DNA from: Sphaerisporangium album
GTDB lineage: Bacteria; Actinomycetota; Actinomycetes; Streptosporangiales; Streptosporangiaceae
DNA length: 64,000 nt
NCBI RefSeq assembly: GCF_003323745.1
Contig: NZ_QOIL01000018.1
Span: forward strand, 1-64,000
Direction: 5' to 3'
In this document: positions 39,172 through 46,042 of the stretch, piece after piece
How the letters are laid out: every line of letters starts with the position of its first letter
Position numbering within the stretch: the first letter of the stretch is position 1
Program-made: the position numbers and the translations under genes
Notes under the pieces: model-generated
Told to the model about the DNA's origin: nothing
The model's input: only the letters and a program-made list of their open reading frames with translations
The model's database searches: none

Positions 39172-40482
39172 TCAGCGAAGCGGCGCCGCCTCGACACGGT
39201 GCCCGGCGAGATGGGCCAGGACGGCCTGGTTGGCCTCCCACCCGTCGGGGAACTTCACCGGGACGTTCAGGCGGACCGGCTCGGCCGAAGGATGCGCGTC
39301 GAGCAGTTCGGGGATCCCGGCGCGGGCGACGACCACGCACGCGTGCCGATGCCGTGAGGTCAGCACGCACAGCCGCCCGGACTCCAGGTGGAAGGCCGTC
39401 GCGTCCCTGCGCCCCGACAGCGGGTGCAGGACGATCGTGACGTCGTACTCGCGGCCCTGCAGCCGGTTGGCCGTGTCGACGGTGACCCCCGGCGGCGGCC
39501 CGGCGGCCAAGATCGCGGCCACCTGGTCGCGGTGCGCCGCCCCGATCGCGATGCGCTCGGCCGTCACCGGGCGCTCGCCACGCTCGGAGATCGCCACCGG
39601 CGCGCGCTGCACGAGCCTCGTGGCCAGCAGGGCGGCGGCCTGGACGGCCTCGGCGTCGGTGCGCAGGGTGTGCCGGCTCGGCAGCTCGTACAGCGCCCAG
39701 CCGCCGGACGCGGCCTCTTCCAGTGCGCGGTCGTAGGCGGTGCGCATGCCGCCCGCCCGGAACACCAGGCGCCGCTCGCCCGGCTCGGTGCCCGCACGAA
39801 AGCCCGTGAACGGGTAGAACGCCTCGGAGACGACCGGCGCGGCCGAGGCGGGCAACCTCCAGGACACCGGCAGCCGGTGCACGGGCAGGTCGGGGTTGTG
39901 GCGCAGCAGCACGGCCACGGCGCTCTGCAGCGGATCCCACGACAGGCCCGCCCAGCGGTCGCCGTCCACGACCGAGAACGGGTCGAGCTGCCCCGGGTCG
40001 CCCACGAACAGCGCCCGCTCGAACATGCCCGCGACGCGCAGCAGCTTGTCCGAGCGCATCTGGTACGCCTCGTCCACGATCGCCCACGGCCAGGTGCGGT
40101 CGCCCGCCCACGCCCACTTGTCGGCGGTGGCCACCACCACGGCGGGGTCGCCCAGCTCGGGCAGCTTGGTGCCTACGGCGGCCTTGCCCATCACCCGGGC
40201 CGGCACGACGTAGTCGGACGCCGACAACCGGCCGACCGGCAGGCCGGGGTGCTCCTCGGCGAGGCGGACGATCAGGTCGTCCACCTGCTCGTTGGTCTGC
40301 GCGACGATCATCAGCGGCTCGCCGGACTCCGCCAGGTGCCCGGCCGCGCGCACCACCAGCGTCGACTTGCCCGCGCCCGGCGGCGAGTCGACGACGACGC
40401 CCCGGTGCCGCGGCAGATCGTCCAGCACGGCGTCGACGACCGCCGCCGCCTCCGCCGCGGGGGACGGCATCGCGCCGATCAC
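39172..40482 (-). CDS. Upf1-like SF1 helicase/ATPase of a four-gene module
   Basis: The product has 436 residues from GTG 40482 with GGGAGGAG before it. SF1 motifs: I 'VVDSPPGAGKSTLVVRAAGH', Ia 'IVAQTNEQVDDL', II 'WAIVDEAYQM', III 'ALFVGDPGQLDPF', IV-like 'LPVSWRLPASAAP', V 'VTVDTANRLQGREYDVTIVL' and VI 'LCVLTSRHRHACVVV'. The protein is compact, without the accessory 1B/2B insertions of UvrD. It most resembles the Upf1/Sen1/Dna2 branch, which moves 5'-3' on RNA or DNA. It is last in an operon with an unknown protein, a Cas4/RecB-like nuclease and a winged-helix protein. Confidence 0.87.
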   Translation of the reverse strand: MIGAMPSPAAEAAAVVDAVLDDLPRHRGVVVDSPPGAGKSTLVVRAAGHLAESGEPLMIVAQTNEQVDDLIVRLAEEHPGLPVGRLSASDYVVPARVMGKAAVGTKLPELGDPAVVVATADKWAWAGDRTWPWAIVDEAYQMRSDKLLRVAGMFERALFVGDPGQLDPFSVVDGDRWAGLSWDPLQSAVAVLLRHNPDLPVHRLPVSWRLPASAAPVVSEAFYPFTGFRAGTEPGERRLVFRAGGMRTAYDRALEEAASGGWALYELPSRHTLRTDAEAVQAAALLATRLVQRAPVAISERGERPVTAERIAIGAAHRDQVAAILAAGPPPGVTVDTANRLQGREYDVTIVLHPLSGRRDATAFHLESGRLCVLTSRHRHACVVVARAGIPELLDAHPSAEPVRLNVPVKFPDGWEANQAVLAHLAGHRVEAAPLR

Positions 40483-40540
40483 GGCCGCTCCTCCCGGCCG
40501 CCGCGCGGGGCCGCCGCTCTCCTCACGCCGGAGGGCGCGC

Positions 40541-42010
40541 TCATGACCACTCCTCCTGATCGTCCTCGGTGCTCGGGACGTACTCCGGCGGGGGGCCGCC
40601 GTGCGTCCAGGGAGTCTCCTCGGGGGCGGGCAGGCTCGCGGGCGGCTGGTACTCGTCGCTGAGCGCGGCGTAGCAGACCTGGTCGCCGACCTCGGGGACC
40701 GCGCCGGGCGTCGCGACCTTGCCGCGCCCCATGCCCTTGACGATCTTCAGGGTCACCAGCTCGCCGTCGACCTCCACGACCTCGGCCTGCTGGCCGCGCC
40801 GGTCCGGGGTGCCCAGCTTCGTCCCGGTGGCCAGCCGCACCGGATCGCCCGTCCGCACGGTGAGCAGCGGCCGCAGCTTGCGCCCCCTGCCCTCGCCCTC
40901 GGCGTTGGCGGGGTCGGACGCGACGACCGTGCCGGTGAACGCCTCGCCGGTCAGCCGGTAGGCCGCCATCACCAGCGGGTCGTCGTAGGCGCGCTGCGCG
41001 TCGTAGGACGCCTGCGCGCGCTCCATGCGGGCCAGCCGGGACGCCGCCGCGACCGCGCCGTCGTGCTTGGGCTGGGGCGGCCCGCCCTCGGCGAGCTGCT
41101 CGGCGAAGGCGGTGAACGACCCGCGGTCGGTCTCCCACCGCGCCGAGGCGCCCCTGCCCTCGGGCAGCCCGCGCAGCAGGTCCACCGCTCGCCACATCAG
41201 CCGCCAGGTCGGATCGAGCTGCGTGCGCACCGCCTCGGCGACCCGCGCGGCCGCCCGCTCGCCCGGCGCCTCCTCGTACGCCCGGATCGCCGGCGCCAGC
41301 ACCTCGGCGTCGAAGCCGGGGTCGGTGGCCGGGCCCGCGGGCGGCCACACCAGCGGATCCTCCGCCTCCCTCGCCGCGTCCGCCCCGGTCGTGCCCGGCG
41401 GCGGGTCGATCCAGCCGATCAGCGACGCGAGGTTGGCGTCCTCCAGCGCGCTCTGGCCCGTGGCCCAGTGCAGCGACAGCGCCTCGGTGGCCGCCAGCAG
41501 CAGCGCCGAGCCGGGGTGGCGCGCCCGCTGGGCGAAGAACGTGAGCCACCGGCCGAGGATCGGCACCGACGGGTGGACGGCGTGCGGGCCCTCCGCGCGG
41601 CGGAACCGCGTCGAGCGGCCGAGCAGCAGCGTGAACGCCAGCGCGGAGCGGCCCGGGACCAGCAGTTGCGGCGCGTCGGCGCACCGCTCGTACGGCTCGG
41701 CGCCGCGCCGCTCGACCGTCTCGGTCTCCTTCAGGAAGCCCTCGACGTACGGCAGGACGATCTCGGCCAGCTCGGCGGCGAACGCGAACCGCAGGTCGCG
41801 GTCGCGTGGCTGGGGCACCACCAGCAGGTGGGGATGGCCGGGGTCGGTGCCCACCATCGCGGCCAGCGGCGCGGCGGCCTCGCCCGCGAGCCGCAGCGGG
41901 ATGAACACCATGGGCCGCTCGGACAGGTGGCAGTGGCGCACGGTGGCGAGCCGCTGGGCCGTCCCGGTTCGCACGGCCCGCAGGCGGGCGAGGGCGGCGA
42001 GCGTGCTCAT
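40541..42010 (-). CDS. Protein of unknown function between helicase and nuclease genes
   Basis: The protein has 489 residues, start fixed by GGAGGCACG before ATG 42010. No domain I can name. The N-terminal two thirds are helical with 'ERPMVFIPLRLAGEAAAPLA', 'LLVVPQPRDRDLRFAFAAEL' and 'PGRSALAFTLLLGRSTRF'. The C-terminal ~130 residues look like a small beta-barrel ('VRLATGTKLGTPDRRGQQAE', 'VVEVDGELVTLKIVKGMGRG'), comparable to KOW/OB-type barrels or the 1B barrel that Upf1-like helicases normally carry. Since the adjacent helicase is compact, this protein could supply its barrel and strand-binding surface. That idea is inference. Confidence 0.75.
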   Translation of the reverse strand: MSTLAALARLRAVRTGTAQRLATVRHCHLSERPMVFIPLRLAGEAAAPLAAMVGTDPGHPHLLVVPQPRDRDLRFAFAAELAEIVLPYVEGFLKETETVERRGAEPYERCADAPQLLVPGRSALAFTLLLGRSTRFRRAEGPHAVHPSVPILGRWLTFFAQRARHPGSALLLAATEALSLHWATGQSALEDANLASLIGWIDPPPGTTGADAAREAEDPLVWPPAGPATDPGFDAEVLAPAIRAYEEAPGERAAARVAEAVRTQLDPTWRLMWRAVDLLRGLPEGRGASARWETDRGSFTAFAEQLAEGGPPQPKHDGAVAAASRLARMERAQASYDAQRAYDDPLVMAAYRLTGEAFTGTVVASDPANAEGEGRGRKLRPLLTVRTGDPVRLATGTKLGTPDRRGQQAEVVEVDGELVTLKIVKGMGRGKVATPGAVPEVGDQVCYAALSDEYQPPASLPAPEETPWTHGGPPPEYVPSTEDDQEEWS

Positions 42011-42086
42011 CGTGCCTCCGCGATCGGGCGACGGCGTCCACGCGGGCGCGGGCGCCGGTGCGGTTGTGCCCGGCGGCGGGTGGGGC

Positions 42087-43196
42087 TCATCCCGCCTCCG
42101 CGTAGATGCGGTCGGCCAGGCGCAGCAGCCGGGCGATCTCCTCCTGGCCCTCGCCGGGGGTCAGGGAGCCGTCGGCCAGCCCCAGCGCCTCCGACACCGT
42201 CGCCACCCCGCCGAGCGCGTCGCGGACCTGACGTCCCAGCAGCTCGGTCGACCCCCCGGCCGCGGCCTCGTCCCGGCAGAAGAAGCACAGGTCGCACGTC
42301 GACAGGCACTCGGGCGCGTACCGGGCCCCGACCGTGCGCACCGCCTCACGCAGCTCGGGCACCGGGCGCGTCGGCACGCCGTCGGCGTCCGGCGCCAGGT
42401 CGAAGGTCAGCTCCTCGGGCAGCCCGTCCACGATCGCGCCGACCCTGGCCATGCGCGAGAGCTGCCTGCGCAGCACAGCCAGCTCCCTGCGCACGTCCAG
42501 CAGCGTCCCCGCCGGGCGGTTCGCGAAGTTCTCCGGGCACACGAGCACGACCTCGTGCGACACCCGGGCCGGGTCGTGGCCGAGCTCCGCCAGCATGGTG
42601 CGCAGCGCCAGCACGTACACCGCCGCCTGGCGCGCCGCCGCCGCCACCTTGTCCGGCTCGGCCTGGCCGTCCACGATCGCGAACGACTTGATCTCCACGA
42701 TGTGGAACCGGCCCGCGAGCCGGAAGGCCACGACGTCCGGCTCCAGGTACGAGGTGTGCCCCGCGATCTCCAGCCGCAGCAGCGGGTGGTCGTACAGGGT
42801 GCCCGCCTCGTCGTCGTCGCGGGCGGCCCGGTCGATCAGCTTGAGCGTGTGGGCGTGGCGCAGGTGCGCCGACGGGTTGCCGCCGATGTCGCCGAGGTCG
42901 GTGTAGGCGGCGAGCGGGATCGGCAGGCCCAGCAGCTCGCGCAGCAGCCGCAGCAACTCGGCGCAGCCCGAGTCCTTCACCAGCGCCTCGAACGCGTTGC
43001 CGCGGGTGATCGCGAACGGCGACTGCCCGAACGGCGCCGGGAACCCCAGATGGGTCGCGGTCGCGTCCTTGTCCACCCCCGCGGCGTCCATCACCGCGCG
43101 CCGCGCGCACCCGGGGTTGGCCGCCAGCGCGGCGATCGCCCGCGCGTCGTGCGGCCGCGCGGGCACGGCGCCGCGCAACCGGTCGAACCGCTCCAC
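42087..43196 (-). CDS. RecB/Cas4-like PD-(D/E)XK nuclease with probable Fe-S cluster
   Basis: The product is about 369 residues from GTG 43196 (AGAGAGG upstream); an ATG at 43229 is an alternative. The nuclease core is 'SYLEPDVVAFRLAGRFHIVE' continuing 'IKSF', giving the Asp...Glu-x-Lys triad, with an upstream His in 'LRHAHTLKLI'. One Cys near the N-terminus ('ANPGCARRAV') and 'CLSTCDLCFFC' near residue 290 match the split four-Cys 4Fe-4S arrangement of AddB, Cas4 and Dna2. 'VYVLALRTML' and 'VSHEVVLVCPEN' resemble RecB-family motif III. With an Upf1/Dna2-like helicase next door it may form a two-chain Dna2- or AdnAB-like machine. Confidence 0.8.
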   Translation of the reverse strand: MERFDRLRGAVPARPHDARAIAALAANPGCARRAVMDAAGVDKDATATHLGFPAPFGQSPFAITRGNAFEALVKDSGCAELLRLLRELLGLPIPLAAYTDLGDIGGNPSAHLRHAHTLKLIDRAARDDDEAGTLYDHPLLRLEIAGHTSYLEPDVVAFRLAGRFHIVEIKSFAIVDGQAEPDKVAAAARQAAVYVLALRTMLAELGHDPARVSHEVVLVCPENFANRPAGTLLDVRRELAVLRRQLSRMARVGAIVDGLPEELTFDLAPDADGVPTRPVPELREAVRTVGARYAPECLSTCDLCFFCRDEAAAGGSTELLGRQVRDALGGVATVSEALGLADGSLTPGEGQEEIARLLRLADRIYAEAG

Positions 43197-43265
43197 CTCA
43201 CACCTCTCTCTGCCACGCGACATGAACACCGGACCGCACGGCCGCCCCGGGCGCGGCGCGGGCTC

Positions 43266-44108
43266 TCACGACGCCTCCTCGCGGGCGAGGCTCAGGATCG
43301 TGCCGCCGAACAGCCGTTCGGCGTCCCCCAGGCGGGCGCGGGCGCGGTCGGCGATCCGCGCGCGGGCGTCCGCGTCCGCGCCGGCGTGGACCTCCAGCTC
43401 GGCGCGGGCCGCCTTGACCACCATGGCCGGACGGGGCGGGGCGTCGGGCGCGACGGGAACGCCGGGGACGTTGTACGCGAGCCGCGACAGCAGTCTCTCC
43501 GCGCCGGACGGCGTCGGCTCGCCCGCCTCCTCCAGCCGCAGGATGTGCTCGGCCACGCGGATCGCCGTGGTGAGGAAGTCGACGCGGGGGCTCAGCGGGC
43601 CGATCGCCCGGCGCTCCAGTGGCCACGTGCTGACCGTGAGCAGGCCGCGCGAGGCCGACAGGCGGTCGGTGAGCGCGGCGCACAGGTAGTACGGCCGCGC
43701 GAACGGCGAGGACCTGAAGGAACGCTCCTCGTCCCTGCGAAGGCTGGCGAGCTGCGTGCCCCGCAACGAGCCCGCCCGCAGCGCGCCGTGCACGGCGACG
43801 ATCATCTTCGCCGACGCGGGCACGCCAAGGATCGTCAGCGCCTGGTGCACCTGCTCGCGCACGGGCACCAGCGCGCCCGGCTCCCGCGCCGCCCCGGCCC
43901 GCGGCGCCTCGTCCGGCTCGCTCGCCGAGGGGGTCTCGCGGGCGGGCGGCTCCTGGTCGGCCAGCGCCTGGTCCCACGCGCGCTCCACGCCGCGCAGCTC
44001 GGCCCGCAGCGACCTCGCCAGCGCGCCGTCCCGGGCGCGCACGGCCCGGCGGACCTCCGCGCGGAGCGCGTTGATGCGCTCCTCCAGAGCGTCCAGCCTT
44101 TCACTCAC
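43266..44108 (-). CDS. Coiled-coil/winged-helix protein, first gene of the helicase-nuclease module
   Basis: The product is about 280 residues from GTG 44108; ATG codons at 44153 and 44147 are possible. Residues 1-50 form a coiled coil ('RLDALEERINALRAEVRRAV'), then an acidic, Pro-rich linker. The centre resembles a winged helix ('QVHQALTILGVPASAKMIVA', 'SLRGTQLASLRRDEERSF'), followed by helices with 'ALTDRLSASRGLLTVSTWPL'. It may be a DNA-binding subunit or the module's regulator. Same strand, short gaps (69, 76 and 58 bases) and order imply one transcript of four genes. Confidence 0.7.
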   Translation of the reverse strand: MSERLDALEERINALRAEVRRAVRARDGALARSLRAELRGVERAWDQALADQEPPARETPSASEPDEAPRAGAAREPGALVPVREQVHQALTILGVPASAKMIVAVHGALRAGSLRGTQLASLRRDEERSFRSSPFARPYYLCAALTDRLSASRGLLTVSTWPLERRAIGPLSPRVDFLTTAIRVAEHILRLEEAGEPTPSGAERLLSRLAYNVPGVPVAPDAPPRPAMVVKAARAELEVHAGADADARARIADRARARLGDAERLFGGTILSLAREEAS

Positions 44109-44191
44109 GCCCGGAGCGTACCAACAGTTCCCTTGAGTTCCAGACATTTCCAATATTCACAGCGCGTCGCCGTTCCGCGGGCGCGGCGCTC

Positions 44192-46042
44192 TCAGCTCAG
44201 GGGTCTGAAGTAGGTCCCCGGGCGCTCGCTGCCCATCACGCCGCCGACGCACCGGTAGACGCGCACCCCCTCCTTGAAAGCCTCCGGGCTCGGGGGCAGC
44301 GCCGAGACCATCCACTTGGAGGGGGAGATCTCCCTGGCGACGCCCTGCCTCGACTTCAGCAGCACCTGCATCGAGCAGAGCTTCTTCACCACGGGGTGCG
44401 CCTCGAGGTCCTGCAGGTCGTAGGTGATCCCGTCCACGGGCATCGGCGCCACGGCGAAGGTCTCCCACGAGTGGGCCTCCTCGCAGCCGCGCCGCTTGAC
44501 CGTCACCGACCCCGCGATGGAGACGATGCCGCCCCAGCACTCGGCCTCCTGACTGCAGGCGGCCCGCGCCGCGGCCACCGACGCCGCGGGGCAGTTGGCC
44601 GTGACGGTCGCAACGGCCCCGGCGGTCGGCTCCAGGCCGCCGGACGGCAGGCCCGTGCCCACGCCCGCCCCCGTCGCCGGTGGAGCGCTCGCCGGCATGG
44701 TCGTGGCGGCGTCGGGCGTCGCGCCCTCGTGGAGGGCGAGGGCCGTCCCGATCGTCAGCAGCAGGGCGAACACCCCGGCGACCGCGACGTACGCGCCGGT
44801 GTGCGCGTTCTGCTTCGGCGTGTGCGGGGGGAGGGTACTGGACACGGCACGTGCGCTCGGCCCGGTGACGGCCTCCCGGGGGGACGGGCGCCCGCCTCGG
44901 TCAGGGCCGTCCCCGTGCCGCCGGGACGGCCCGGTGGGAGCCGAATGCCGGGAATGGGCCGGGGGCGCGGACGGCGCGCTCCGCGCGGCGGGGCGGGAGT
45001 ACTGCGGCGGGCGCTCGTACGGCCCGGAGTGGCCGGGCGCGCTCGCGTGGGGGAGCGGCGCCGAATGTCCGTGGGGGGCCGGATGCGACAGCGGTCCCGA
45101 GTGCCCGGGGTGGCCCGGCTGGGCGGCCGGACCGGGGTGGCTCGGCTGGGCCACCTGATATGCCACCGACGGACCGCCCGATCCGGATCGCCCGGAGTGC
45201 CCCGGCCGTCCCGGCAGCACGGCCGCGGGGATCGCCGCGAGGGCGTCCCGCAGGTCGGCGGCGGACGGGATGCGCTCGCGGGGGTCGGCCGCCATGCCCG
45301 CGCGGAGCACGGCGGTCAGCTCCGGCGCCACCCCGGGGATCTCCGGGACCGGCCGCCGGTGCAACGCCATGATCATCGCGACGTTGACCACGCCGCTCTC
45401 GGGGAAACGCGGCGGACGCCCGCTGAGCAGCGCGTACAACGTCGCCGACAGCGAGTAGACGTCGCCCGCCGGGCTCGGCTCGGCGAGCTCGAACGCCTCC
45501 GGAGGGCCGAACGCCGGGGTCAGCGACTCGCGGGTCACCGACATCTCGCCCTCGGTGTGAGCGGTCGCGGCCAGCCCGAAGTCCGACAGCGCCACCATCC
45601 CGTACCCGTTCACCAGGATGTTGGCCGGTTTCACGTCACGGTGCAGCACGCCCGCCGTGTGGGCCGCCGCCAGCGCGTCGGCGATGCGCACCCCGATGTC
45701 GCGCACCTCGGCGGGGCTCAGCGGGCCCTGCTCGCGCAGCCGGTCCGACAGCGAACCGCCCGGGCACAGCTCCAGCACCATGTACGGACGCCCGTCGCCG
45801 AGCACCCCGGCGTCGTACACGTCCGCCACGTGCGGGTGGCCCGACAGCGCCCCGGCCGAGCTGACCTCGCGCATGAAGCGCCGCCGGTCGCGCTCGGAGA
45901 CCAGCACGCGGTTGTCGACCTTGAGAGCGACCTCGCGGCGTACGGCGAGCTGCCGCGCGCGGTACACCACGCCGAACCCGCCCTGACCGAGGATTCCGAG
46001 CACCTCGTACCCCGGCACCTCGGGCGCCCCAGGCTCGCCCAC
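44192..46042 (-). CDS. Transmembrane Ser/Thr protein kinase (PknB-like) with Cys-rich outer domain
   Basis: The protein has 616 residues. The kinase domain (10-~270) has 'LGQGGFGVVYRARQ' (P-loop), Lys in 'VALKVD', 'HRDVKPANILV', 'LSDFGLAA' in place of DFG-containing loop, and 'DVYSLSATLYALLSG'. A ~130-residue linker is rich in His, Ser, Gly and Pro with recurring 'HSGP'/'GHSG' units. One TM helix follows ('YVAVAGVFALLLTIGTALAL'). The outside domain has cysteines in 'CSQEAECWGG', 'RRGCEEAHSWETF' and 'KLCSMQ' and resembles septum-formation-type domains. It probably senses an envelope cue. ATG 46042 has GAGGGAGG before it. Confidence 0.93.
   Translation of the reverse strand: MGEPGAPEVPGYEVLGILGQGGFGVVYRARQLAVRREVALKVDNRVLVSERDRRRFMREVSSAGALSGHPHVADVYDAGVLGDGRPYMVLELCPGGSLSDRLREQGPLSPAEVRDIGVRIADALAAAHTAGVLHRDVKPANILVNGYGMVALSDFGLAATAHTEGEMSVTRESLTPAFGPPEAFELAEPSPAGDVYSLSATLYALLSGRPPRFPESGVVNVAMIMALHRRPVPEIPGVAPELTAVLRAGMAADPRERIPSAADLRDALAAIPAAVLPGRPGHSGRSGSGGPSVAYQVAQPSHPGPAAQPGHPGHSGPLSHPAPHGHSAPLPHASAPGHSGPYERPPQYSRPAARSAPSAPPAHSRHSAPTGPSRRHGDGPDRGGRPSPREAVTGPSARAVSSTLPPHTPKQNAHTGAYVAVAGVFALLLTIGTALALHEGATPDAATTMPASAPPATGAGVGTGLPSGGLEPTAGAVATVTANCPAASVAAARAACSQEAECWGGIVSIAGSVTVKRRGCEEAHSWETFAVAPMPVDGITYDLQDLEAHPVVKKLCSMQVLLKSRQGVAREISPSKWMVSALPPSPEAFKEGVRVYRCVGGVMGSERPGTYFRPLS

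Follow-up and report, generated by a model that had tools for sequence, protein, structure and literature searches.

A conserved actinomycete gene module that may form a DNA2-like helicase-nuclease in separate parts

Results

The four-gene unit and its proteins

The window analysed here is the whole 64,000-nucleotide stretch of Sphaerisporangium album DNA (GCF_003323745.1, contig NZ_QOIL01000018.1, positions 1 to 64,000), from a genome of 9.3 Mb. Its minus strand carries four co-directional open reading frames (ORFs), which we call CC, NUC, UNK and HEL. CC (43266-44153) is the first gene of the unit and encodes a helical protein of 295 amino acids (aa) with an N-terminal helical hairpin. It is followed by NUC (42087-43229, 380 aa), a predicted RecB-family PD-(D/E)XK nuclease with a split four-cysteine (iron-staple) pattern; UNK (40541-42010, 489 aa), with a possibly RNase H-like N-terminal part and a C-terminal barrel; and HEL (39172-40482, 436 aa), a compact SF1B helicase core of the Upf1/DNA2 branch. 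The genes are separated by 36 (CC/NUC), 76 (NUC/UNK) and 58 (UNK/HEL) bases, and several relatives show a four-base overlap between stop and start codons, for example NUC/UNK of L027 and L028 (L numbers denote loci and G numbers genomes). A preliminary description of this DNA had treated the four co-directional genes as one unit, and NUC, UNK and HEL stood together in that order in all 20 of the first loci collected. It had ended the unit at position 44108, a GTG codon inside CC at which CC also starts in L036. An ATG at codon 3 of NUC is a likely alternative start.

None of CC, NUC and UNK reached the cut-off of a family in Pfam or NCBIfam, nor did they match a PADLOC model (2.0.0, 2023) at E <= 1, which speaks against a known defence system. 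Likewise, no named system matching all four proteins was found in these libraries, and no description or name of the module was recognised in the literature searched, a search that most subscription papers lay outside. With the linkage reported below, these results support a nucleic-acid-processing module that is nameless in the libraries and papers searched and conserved in many actinomycetes.

In an alignment of 57 NUC sequences, C41, C308, C312, C318 and Y205 never vary, and at least 90% of the sequences keep E163, D165, E179, K181 and Q201. The Fe-S-pattern cysteines are encoded on the minus strand at 43107-43109 (C41) and 42276-42308 (C308-x3-C312-x5-C318), and the (D/E)xK motif E179-I-K181 lies at 42687-42695 on the same strand. 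The split four-cysteine pattern that the preliminary description gave for the proposed nuclease is thus confirmed, and the D/E-x-K residues are present in the alignment. We predict that NUC is a RecB-family core with a four-cysteine iron staple as in AddB, DNA2, Cas4 and Bad, for which the staple is described in excerpts of published work (PMC7430649). NUC has no match to Cas4 or any other named nuclease family in Pfam, NCBIfam and PADLOC; PUB_1 in Pfam was its only library match (E 0.14), with nothing at E <= 1 in the other two. Profiles of NUC, UNK and CC searched against PDB sequences returned designed proteins or weak matches, and for NUC no iron-staple nuclease structure.

The nearest PDB matches of the HEL profile are SMUBP-2/IGHMBP2 (E 2e-10) and then DNA2 (E 1e-8), as would be expected of the compact Upf1/Dna2-branch helicase initially described. 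In Pfam, HEL matches AAA_11 (E 6e-8), AAA_12 and AAA_30, with no UvrD family at E <= 1. All seven helicase motif strings sought are present (residues 33, 62, 137, 161, 207, 336 and 376). Walker A begins at residue 33, and the matching part of SMUBP-2 starts near its residue 196; thus, HEL has no room for a preceding barrel. Matches of HEL to PADLOC helicase models are weak and partial (best MkoA, E 4e-6), and the NCBIfam family PLuB_AAA matches it at E 3.5e-11, far below that family's cut-off.

The structure model of UNK (pLDDT 91.5) contains a beta-barrel at residues 347-450 (40661-40972, minus strand). It appeared closest to domain 1B of IGHMBP2 in a second-look structural aligner, which cannot exclude families outside its list; a Foldseek search with the model returned nothing at E <= 0.001. 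UNK had been described as lacking any recognised domain, with a barrel-like C-terminus that might supply what the compact helicase lacks, and it does carry the 1B barrel that HEL is without. Residues 31-290 (41141-41920, minus strand) possibly adopt an RNase H-like/DEDD-exonuclease-like fold. A D-x-E pair is absent from the conserved columns of 65 UNK sequences, and this part is probably a scaffold without catalysis.

The CC model consists of helices only; its N-terminal hairpin (residues 14-67) is good and its middle poor, and Foldseek found no PDB match for it at E <= 0.001. The winged helix previously attributed to CC was therefore not upheld. CC was found in 17/20 of the first loci and is not recognised in the core Streptomyces-type operon, and is thus dispensable.

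Linkage and distribution

Of 577 UNK relatives we kept 80 named loci and examined all of them; NUC is present in 80/80, HEL in 70/80 and CC in 62/80. In all, 153 loci with HEL were compared, representing 141 distinct HEL sequences after 12 duplicate loci were merged (HEL is identical in L032 and L051, and in L029 and L052). NUC and UNK lie within 9 kb of HEL in 146 of the 153, and in 146/146 of these the order on one strand is NUC-UNK-HEL. Among 39 loci fetched through HEL itself (L171-L189, L257-L276), NUC and UNK adjoin it in 34; the exceptions are a locus cut by a contig end (L263), two HEL fragments (L188, L189) and two genes standing alone (L171, L273). Thus, similar neighbours do occur in many other actinomycetes, and the homologues are far from rarely together. 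HEL genes without NUC or UNK adjoining were seen in L171, L192, L196, L198, L200 and L273, some of them in Micromonospora or Verrucosispora genomes that hold NUC-UNK pairs without HEL elsewhere.

UNK occurs in 21 of 60 genomes (its own included), among them 9/10 others of the window's genus. The NUC-UNK-HEL order is kept in two loci outside the class (L186, L187), with NUC at about 1e-18, UNK at 1e-15 to 1e-17 and HEL at 1e-58 or better. HEL is scarce across the phylum, being found in 58/396 genomes at E <= 0.001 and in only 16 at E <= 1e-50. A tblastn search of UNK or NUC against 50,697 phage records gave no match, which rules against a phage origin.

Comparison with single-chain and other enzymes

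Eukaryotic DNA2 contains an iron-staple nuclease, a 1B barrel and an SF1B helicase, and works with Mre11-Rad50 in end resection. The module has the same parts, with the barrel between nuclease and helicase, but not their fusion into a single chain: nuclease, UNK and helicase are separate genes in the window and in 146/146 loci. From its published description, Bad of Geobacillus stearothermophilus is comparable in uniting an iron-staple RecB-family nuclease and an SF1B helicase; excerpts of that description give a single 1245-aa chain with a central domain of unknown structure, rare and sporadic and found beside a methyltransferase gene in Geobacilli (PMC7430649). The module differs from Bad in having three genes, in being common in some actinomycete genera and in being joined by CC, SbcCD or Wadjet in some copies.

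We also compared the module with 19 long actinomycete TM0106 (TIGR03491) proteins, single chains of about 1100-1260 aa that run from an Fe-S nuclease through a DxE exonuclease part and a barrel region to a Upf1-like helicase. Their exonuclease-part DxE lies at residues 202-399 and Walker A at 671-873. The HEL profile matches TM0106 residues 761-1142 (E 5e-28), the NUC profile matches residues 22-300 co-linearly but weakly (E 8e-4, probability 25%) and the UNK barrel matches residues 607-692 at only E 0.07 (probability 0.8%). Nothing convincing was found there for CC or the N-terminal part of UNK; the exonuclease part is unmatched, and its DxE pair (D331 and E333, invariant in the 19 proteins) has no counterpart in UNK. 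Thus, of the earlier claim that the gene order fits no known system, the absence of a name in the libraries stands, but content and order appear to fit a known kind, DNA2-like single chains (Bad, TM0106) cut into three genes.

TIGR03491 matches none of the four proteins at E <= 1 and is absent from the window's genome. In a sample of 394 genomes from the class, 70 have HEL (E <= 1e-60) and 134 have TIGR03491 above its cut-off; 3 have both, versus 23.8 expected. The three genomes with both (G118, G798 and G856) have CC-bearing copies (L180, L272 and L270). Similarly, TIGR03491 occurs in 6 of 41 relatives, and UNK in none of those 6.

AddAB, AdnAB and RecBCD resemble the module as helicases joined with RecB-family nucleases on DNA ends, and AddB shares the iron staple. 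However, their motors are UvrD-like SF1A helicases in large fused chains and HEL is Upf1-like, with AAA_11 and AAA_12 and no UvrD, so that identity with AddAB or AdnAB was rejected. HerA and NurA belong to families other than the module's. This archaeal helicase-nuclease is alike in its pairing with Mre11-Rad50, with which it cooperates at breaks according to an excerpted account (PMC5715905).

HEL also matches 51 plasmid records. The five that were opened (L234, L235, L334-L336; Rhodococcus, Mycobacterium, Cellulosimicrobium and Xylanimonas) hold an operon in which a VWA gene, a small protein (about 60-70 residues) and one of about 390 residues precede the helicase; four of the five have an AAA ATPase gene ahead, and NUC is not listed. 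The match of HEL to this helicase reaches E 2e-51; that of UNK to the ~390-residue protein covers most of its length but is weak (E 0.002, probability 14%). If the latter match is real, UNK and HEL would be a constant pair found on plasmids without NUC, and the nuclease would thus be exchangeable.

Core and accessory copies

Core copies keep steady surroundings. All 9 loci from the window's genus have HEL flanked by PPX and MFS genes, and 6 of the 9 have an SSS transporter gene on the side of CC. UNK occurs in 141/150 genomes of a second genus (g46, Streptomyces-type), which is probably Streptomyces: of 136 plasmid records matching a chromosome end of G551, 133 are from Streptomyces, as are 11 of the 13 matching that of G894. 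The core region gave only short matches. Among 20 Streptomyces-type loci, TPR, His_Phos_1 and PAP2 genes lie upstream (each in 15-19), and downstream there are a small gene and one for Prim-Pol (each in 11-12); a more sensitive scan of 154 loci found TPR in 22, PAP2 in 20, the small gene in 20 and Prim-Pol in 16. Such steady flanks form a pattern of vertical inheritance.

Many Streptomyces-type loci have the Prim-Pol (PF09250) gene downstream of HEL, and it is a possible partner or landmark. A tRNA-Lys (ctt) gene lies near the core module in 5/5 Streptomyces-type loci scanned (L172, L182, L247, L248 and L251). In some Streptomyces-type loci, namely L177 (9061-9730), L176 and L249, the last ~22 codons of HEL recur in tandem downstream of the gene, joined to short GC-rich sequence and spaced by 169 bases in L177.

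SbcCD, the Mre11-Rad50 of bacteria, senses and processes DNA ends. An SbcCD pair lies beside 21 of the 141 distinct HEL loci, and Wadjet genes lie within 9 kb of HEL in 8 of these 21, counts that are not population frequencies, as the loci were partly picked as second copies or from outside the commonest genus. SbcD_C or SbcC_Walker_B domains were found where tested (both in L117, SbcD in L104, SbcC in L236). Two layouts occur. In Amycolatopsis, Kibdelosporangium and Micromonospora the order is CC-NUC-UNK-HEL-SbcD-SbcC in one direction (L086, L088, L117, L191, L193, L194 and L104, the last holding at most a CC remnant), and elsewhere SbcCD is divergent from CC (L184, L233, L236-L242, L270, L272, L274 and L275). 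CC is present in 20/21 SbcCD-linked loci versus 75/113 others. The adjoining SbcD is additional to a weaker-scoring SbcD elsewhere in 15/15 linked genomes, which were chosen for the link (G585 has more), and 7/7 genomes without the link have a single SbcD gene. Three UNK matches each were seen in G585, G511 and G586, of which G585 was opened. Beside the plasmid copy L232 (208-2269), SbcC and SbcD are broken into several small ORFs, and the module and Wadjet ORFs are full-length.

The Wadjet genes, which are not part of the module itself, are of the DUF3375/DUF4194 type in L232, L233, L240 and L275 and of PADLOC type 2 (JetA2/B2/C2) in L238, L239, L272 and, by one subunit, L104. They directly follow HEL in six of the eight, with a helicase gene intervening in L275 and SbcCD in L104; in L270 a JetA2 match lies just beyond the 9-kb limit. 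SbcCD linkage and Wadjet linkage each need at least four changes on the HEL tree, a quick tree in which many forks stay open and long branches join.

All five SbcCD-linked copies whose replicon is seen as one contig or record sit close to an end. On the three longest of these replicons the copies occupy 4.7-9.6 kb of 8.27 Mb (L236), 20-25 kb of 8.53 Mb (L237) and 14-19 kb of 8.87 Mb (L275). In L233, on a 300 kb linear plasmid, the distance to the end is about 11-16 kb, and in L232, on a plasmid record of 186 kb that is listed as circular, it is 2-7 kb. The SbcD match of L237 recurs 25.6 kb from the other end, and is thus probably in terminal repeats. Second copies of another type, without SbcCD (L244, L245), lie inside contigs, far from the contig end. 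Accessory copies L185, L244-L246, L276 and L237 adjoin an SNF2 helicase gene (PADLOC C3a139), a PD-(D/E)XK gene (PprPDDEXK) or a TerD-domain gene. The linked SbcC of L236 (81-3278, minus strand) scores with PADLOC LmuB (E 2e-14) and better with mad3, and module-linked SbcCD could lie behind some of the 'Lamassu' calls made at Streptomyces chromosome ends.

Discussion

We consider it probable, if well short of certain, that NUC, UNK and HEL together make up one DNA2-like helicase-nuclease, divided over three genes and acting on DNA ends, with CC as an optional adaptor. HEL would be the motor, presumably moving 5'-to-3', and UNK would bring the 1B barrel that normally resides in the motor's own chain, together with a probably silent RNase H-like scaffold. 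NUC would be the iron-staple nuclease that cuts the unwound strand, and CC a helical adaptor of the four-gene copies. Such a complex would load on a free DNA end, unwind it and cut single strands, leaving the end resected or destroyed.

Core copies, namely that of the window and the three-gene Streptomyces-type operon, look like maintenance enzymes and may replace the single-chain TM0106 protein in this role. Accessory copies may serve defence: they would be coupled to their own SbcCD, which opens blocked ends, and some also to Wadjet, which linearises plasmids, with the module degrading what SbcCD or Wadjet opens. SbcCD processes ends, and Wadjet cuts small circular DNA, as excerpts of a published study describe (PMC10586767); both would therefore feed a helicase-nuclease with ends.

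Several observations weigh against this interpretation. The NUC and UNK matches to TM0106 are weak alone, and the TM0106 helicase would match any Upf1-like helicase. The exclusion between HEL and TIGR03491 (one-sided Fisher 1e-10) comes from a statistic that ignores phylogeny, and at E <= 0.001 TIGR03491 is found in 154 genomes with an overlap of 7, the four extra at E 1e-4 to 1e-3. The RNase H-like fold of UNK is borderline in the model, and CC is unexplained. Ten of the 80 loci reached through UNK are NUC-UNK pairs without HEL adjoining; all ten are from Micromonospora or Verrucosispora, and HEL has a match elsewhere in each genome. The window copy has neither SbcCD nor Wadjet adjoining, and its genome has one SbcD gene and no DUF4194. 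Furthermore, other genera of the window's family have UNK only patchily (10/26 genomes) and HEL (E <= 1e-60) is in 70/394 genomes of the class, with surroundings fetched for only part of these 70, unlike plain housekeeping genes. IGHMBP2 and Sen1 act on RNA too.

That last point raises the question of whether the module is an RNA or R-loop processing complex, with a Upf1/IGHMBP2/Sen1-like helicase working on RNA or hybrids and the nuclease trimming displaced DNA. The UNK barrel is closest to IGHMBP2, the same protein as SMUBP-2, the best PDB profile match of HEL, and an RNase H-like part would suit hybrids. However, UNK has no conserved DxE pair, nucleases of the iron-staple RecB type are known on DNA (AddB, DNA2, Cas4, Bad) and the linked SbcCD, Wadjet and Prim-Pol are DNA enzymes, and we regard this explanation as highly improbable. 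It also seems rather unlikely that the module, the window copy included, is primarily an anti-plasmid or anti-phage system whose wide spread reflects a defence turned near-universal in one genus. Accessory copies near DUF3375-type or JetA2/B2/C2-type Wadjet, or beside SNF2 or PD-(D/E)XK candidate defence genes (L185, L244-L246, L276), and the patchiness in the window's family would fit such a role, but UNK mostly keeps one syntenic place in the Streptomyces-type loci compared, as the module does in the window's genus, the phage records gave no match and PADLOC has no model for CC, NUC or UNK. On balance, the fixed PPX/MFS place together with near-universal UNK in one large genus speaks for maintenance, and the occurrence of UNK in only 10/26 genomes from the family's other genera and the accessory copies near SbcCD and Wadjet leave room for defence.

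The SbcCD and Wadjet links might also be functionally meaningless hitch-hiking in chromosome arms, the module being a stand-alone repair enzyme everywhere. Excerpts of a published survey report Wadjet and Lamassu as generally enriched towards Streptomyces chromosome ends (PMC10482375), so that co-location can be passive and position alone proves little; 120/141 distinct HEL loci are without SbcCD, and the other second copies lie far from contig ends. Against passive carriage, the adjoining SbcCD is an additional copy in every linked genome checked, it is found co-directionally downstream in three genera and divergently upstream in others, and its link state changed at least four times on the HEL tree. 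We therefore judge hitch-hiking unlikely and retain the DNA2-like helicase-nuclease as the better account.

A bolder extension of that account can be offered only tentatively, as we think it possible but more doubtful than the account itself. The accessory form could combine up to ten genes into one immune machine, in which Wadjet would cut circular plasmids, blocked or hairpin ends would be opened by a private SbcCD, and the module would unwind and destroy the linear DNA so produced. Situated near the protein-capped telomeres of linear Streptomyces replicons, this machine would leave capped host ends intact and destroy uncapped ones, acting as a legitimacy check, and the core copies, standing in for TM0106, would be its maintenance ancestor or descendant.

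Streptomyces-type genomes and many other actinomycetes thus appear to share a DNA2-like helicase-nuclease that is unnamed in the family libraries used. The structure and function of Bad's central domain are called completely unknown in excerpts of its description (PMC7430649), and the UNK model, with its barrel and possible RNase H-like scaffold, offers a first object for a possible comparison with that domain. Additionally, the extra SbcCD and nearby Wadjet suggest how Wadjet-linearised DNA could be finished off, and the linkage may bear on the crowding of SMC-type defences at Streptomyces chromosome ends.

A Ser/Thr kinase gene, PK, was considered as a fifth member and dropped; it occurs in 8/80 named loci, four of those at 33-37% identity, and is thus not a general part of the module. 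In the window the co-directional PK (44192-46042, minus strand) stops 38 bases before CC and may share its transcript here, and in the window's genus the kinase adjoins the module in 5/9 loci.

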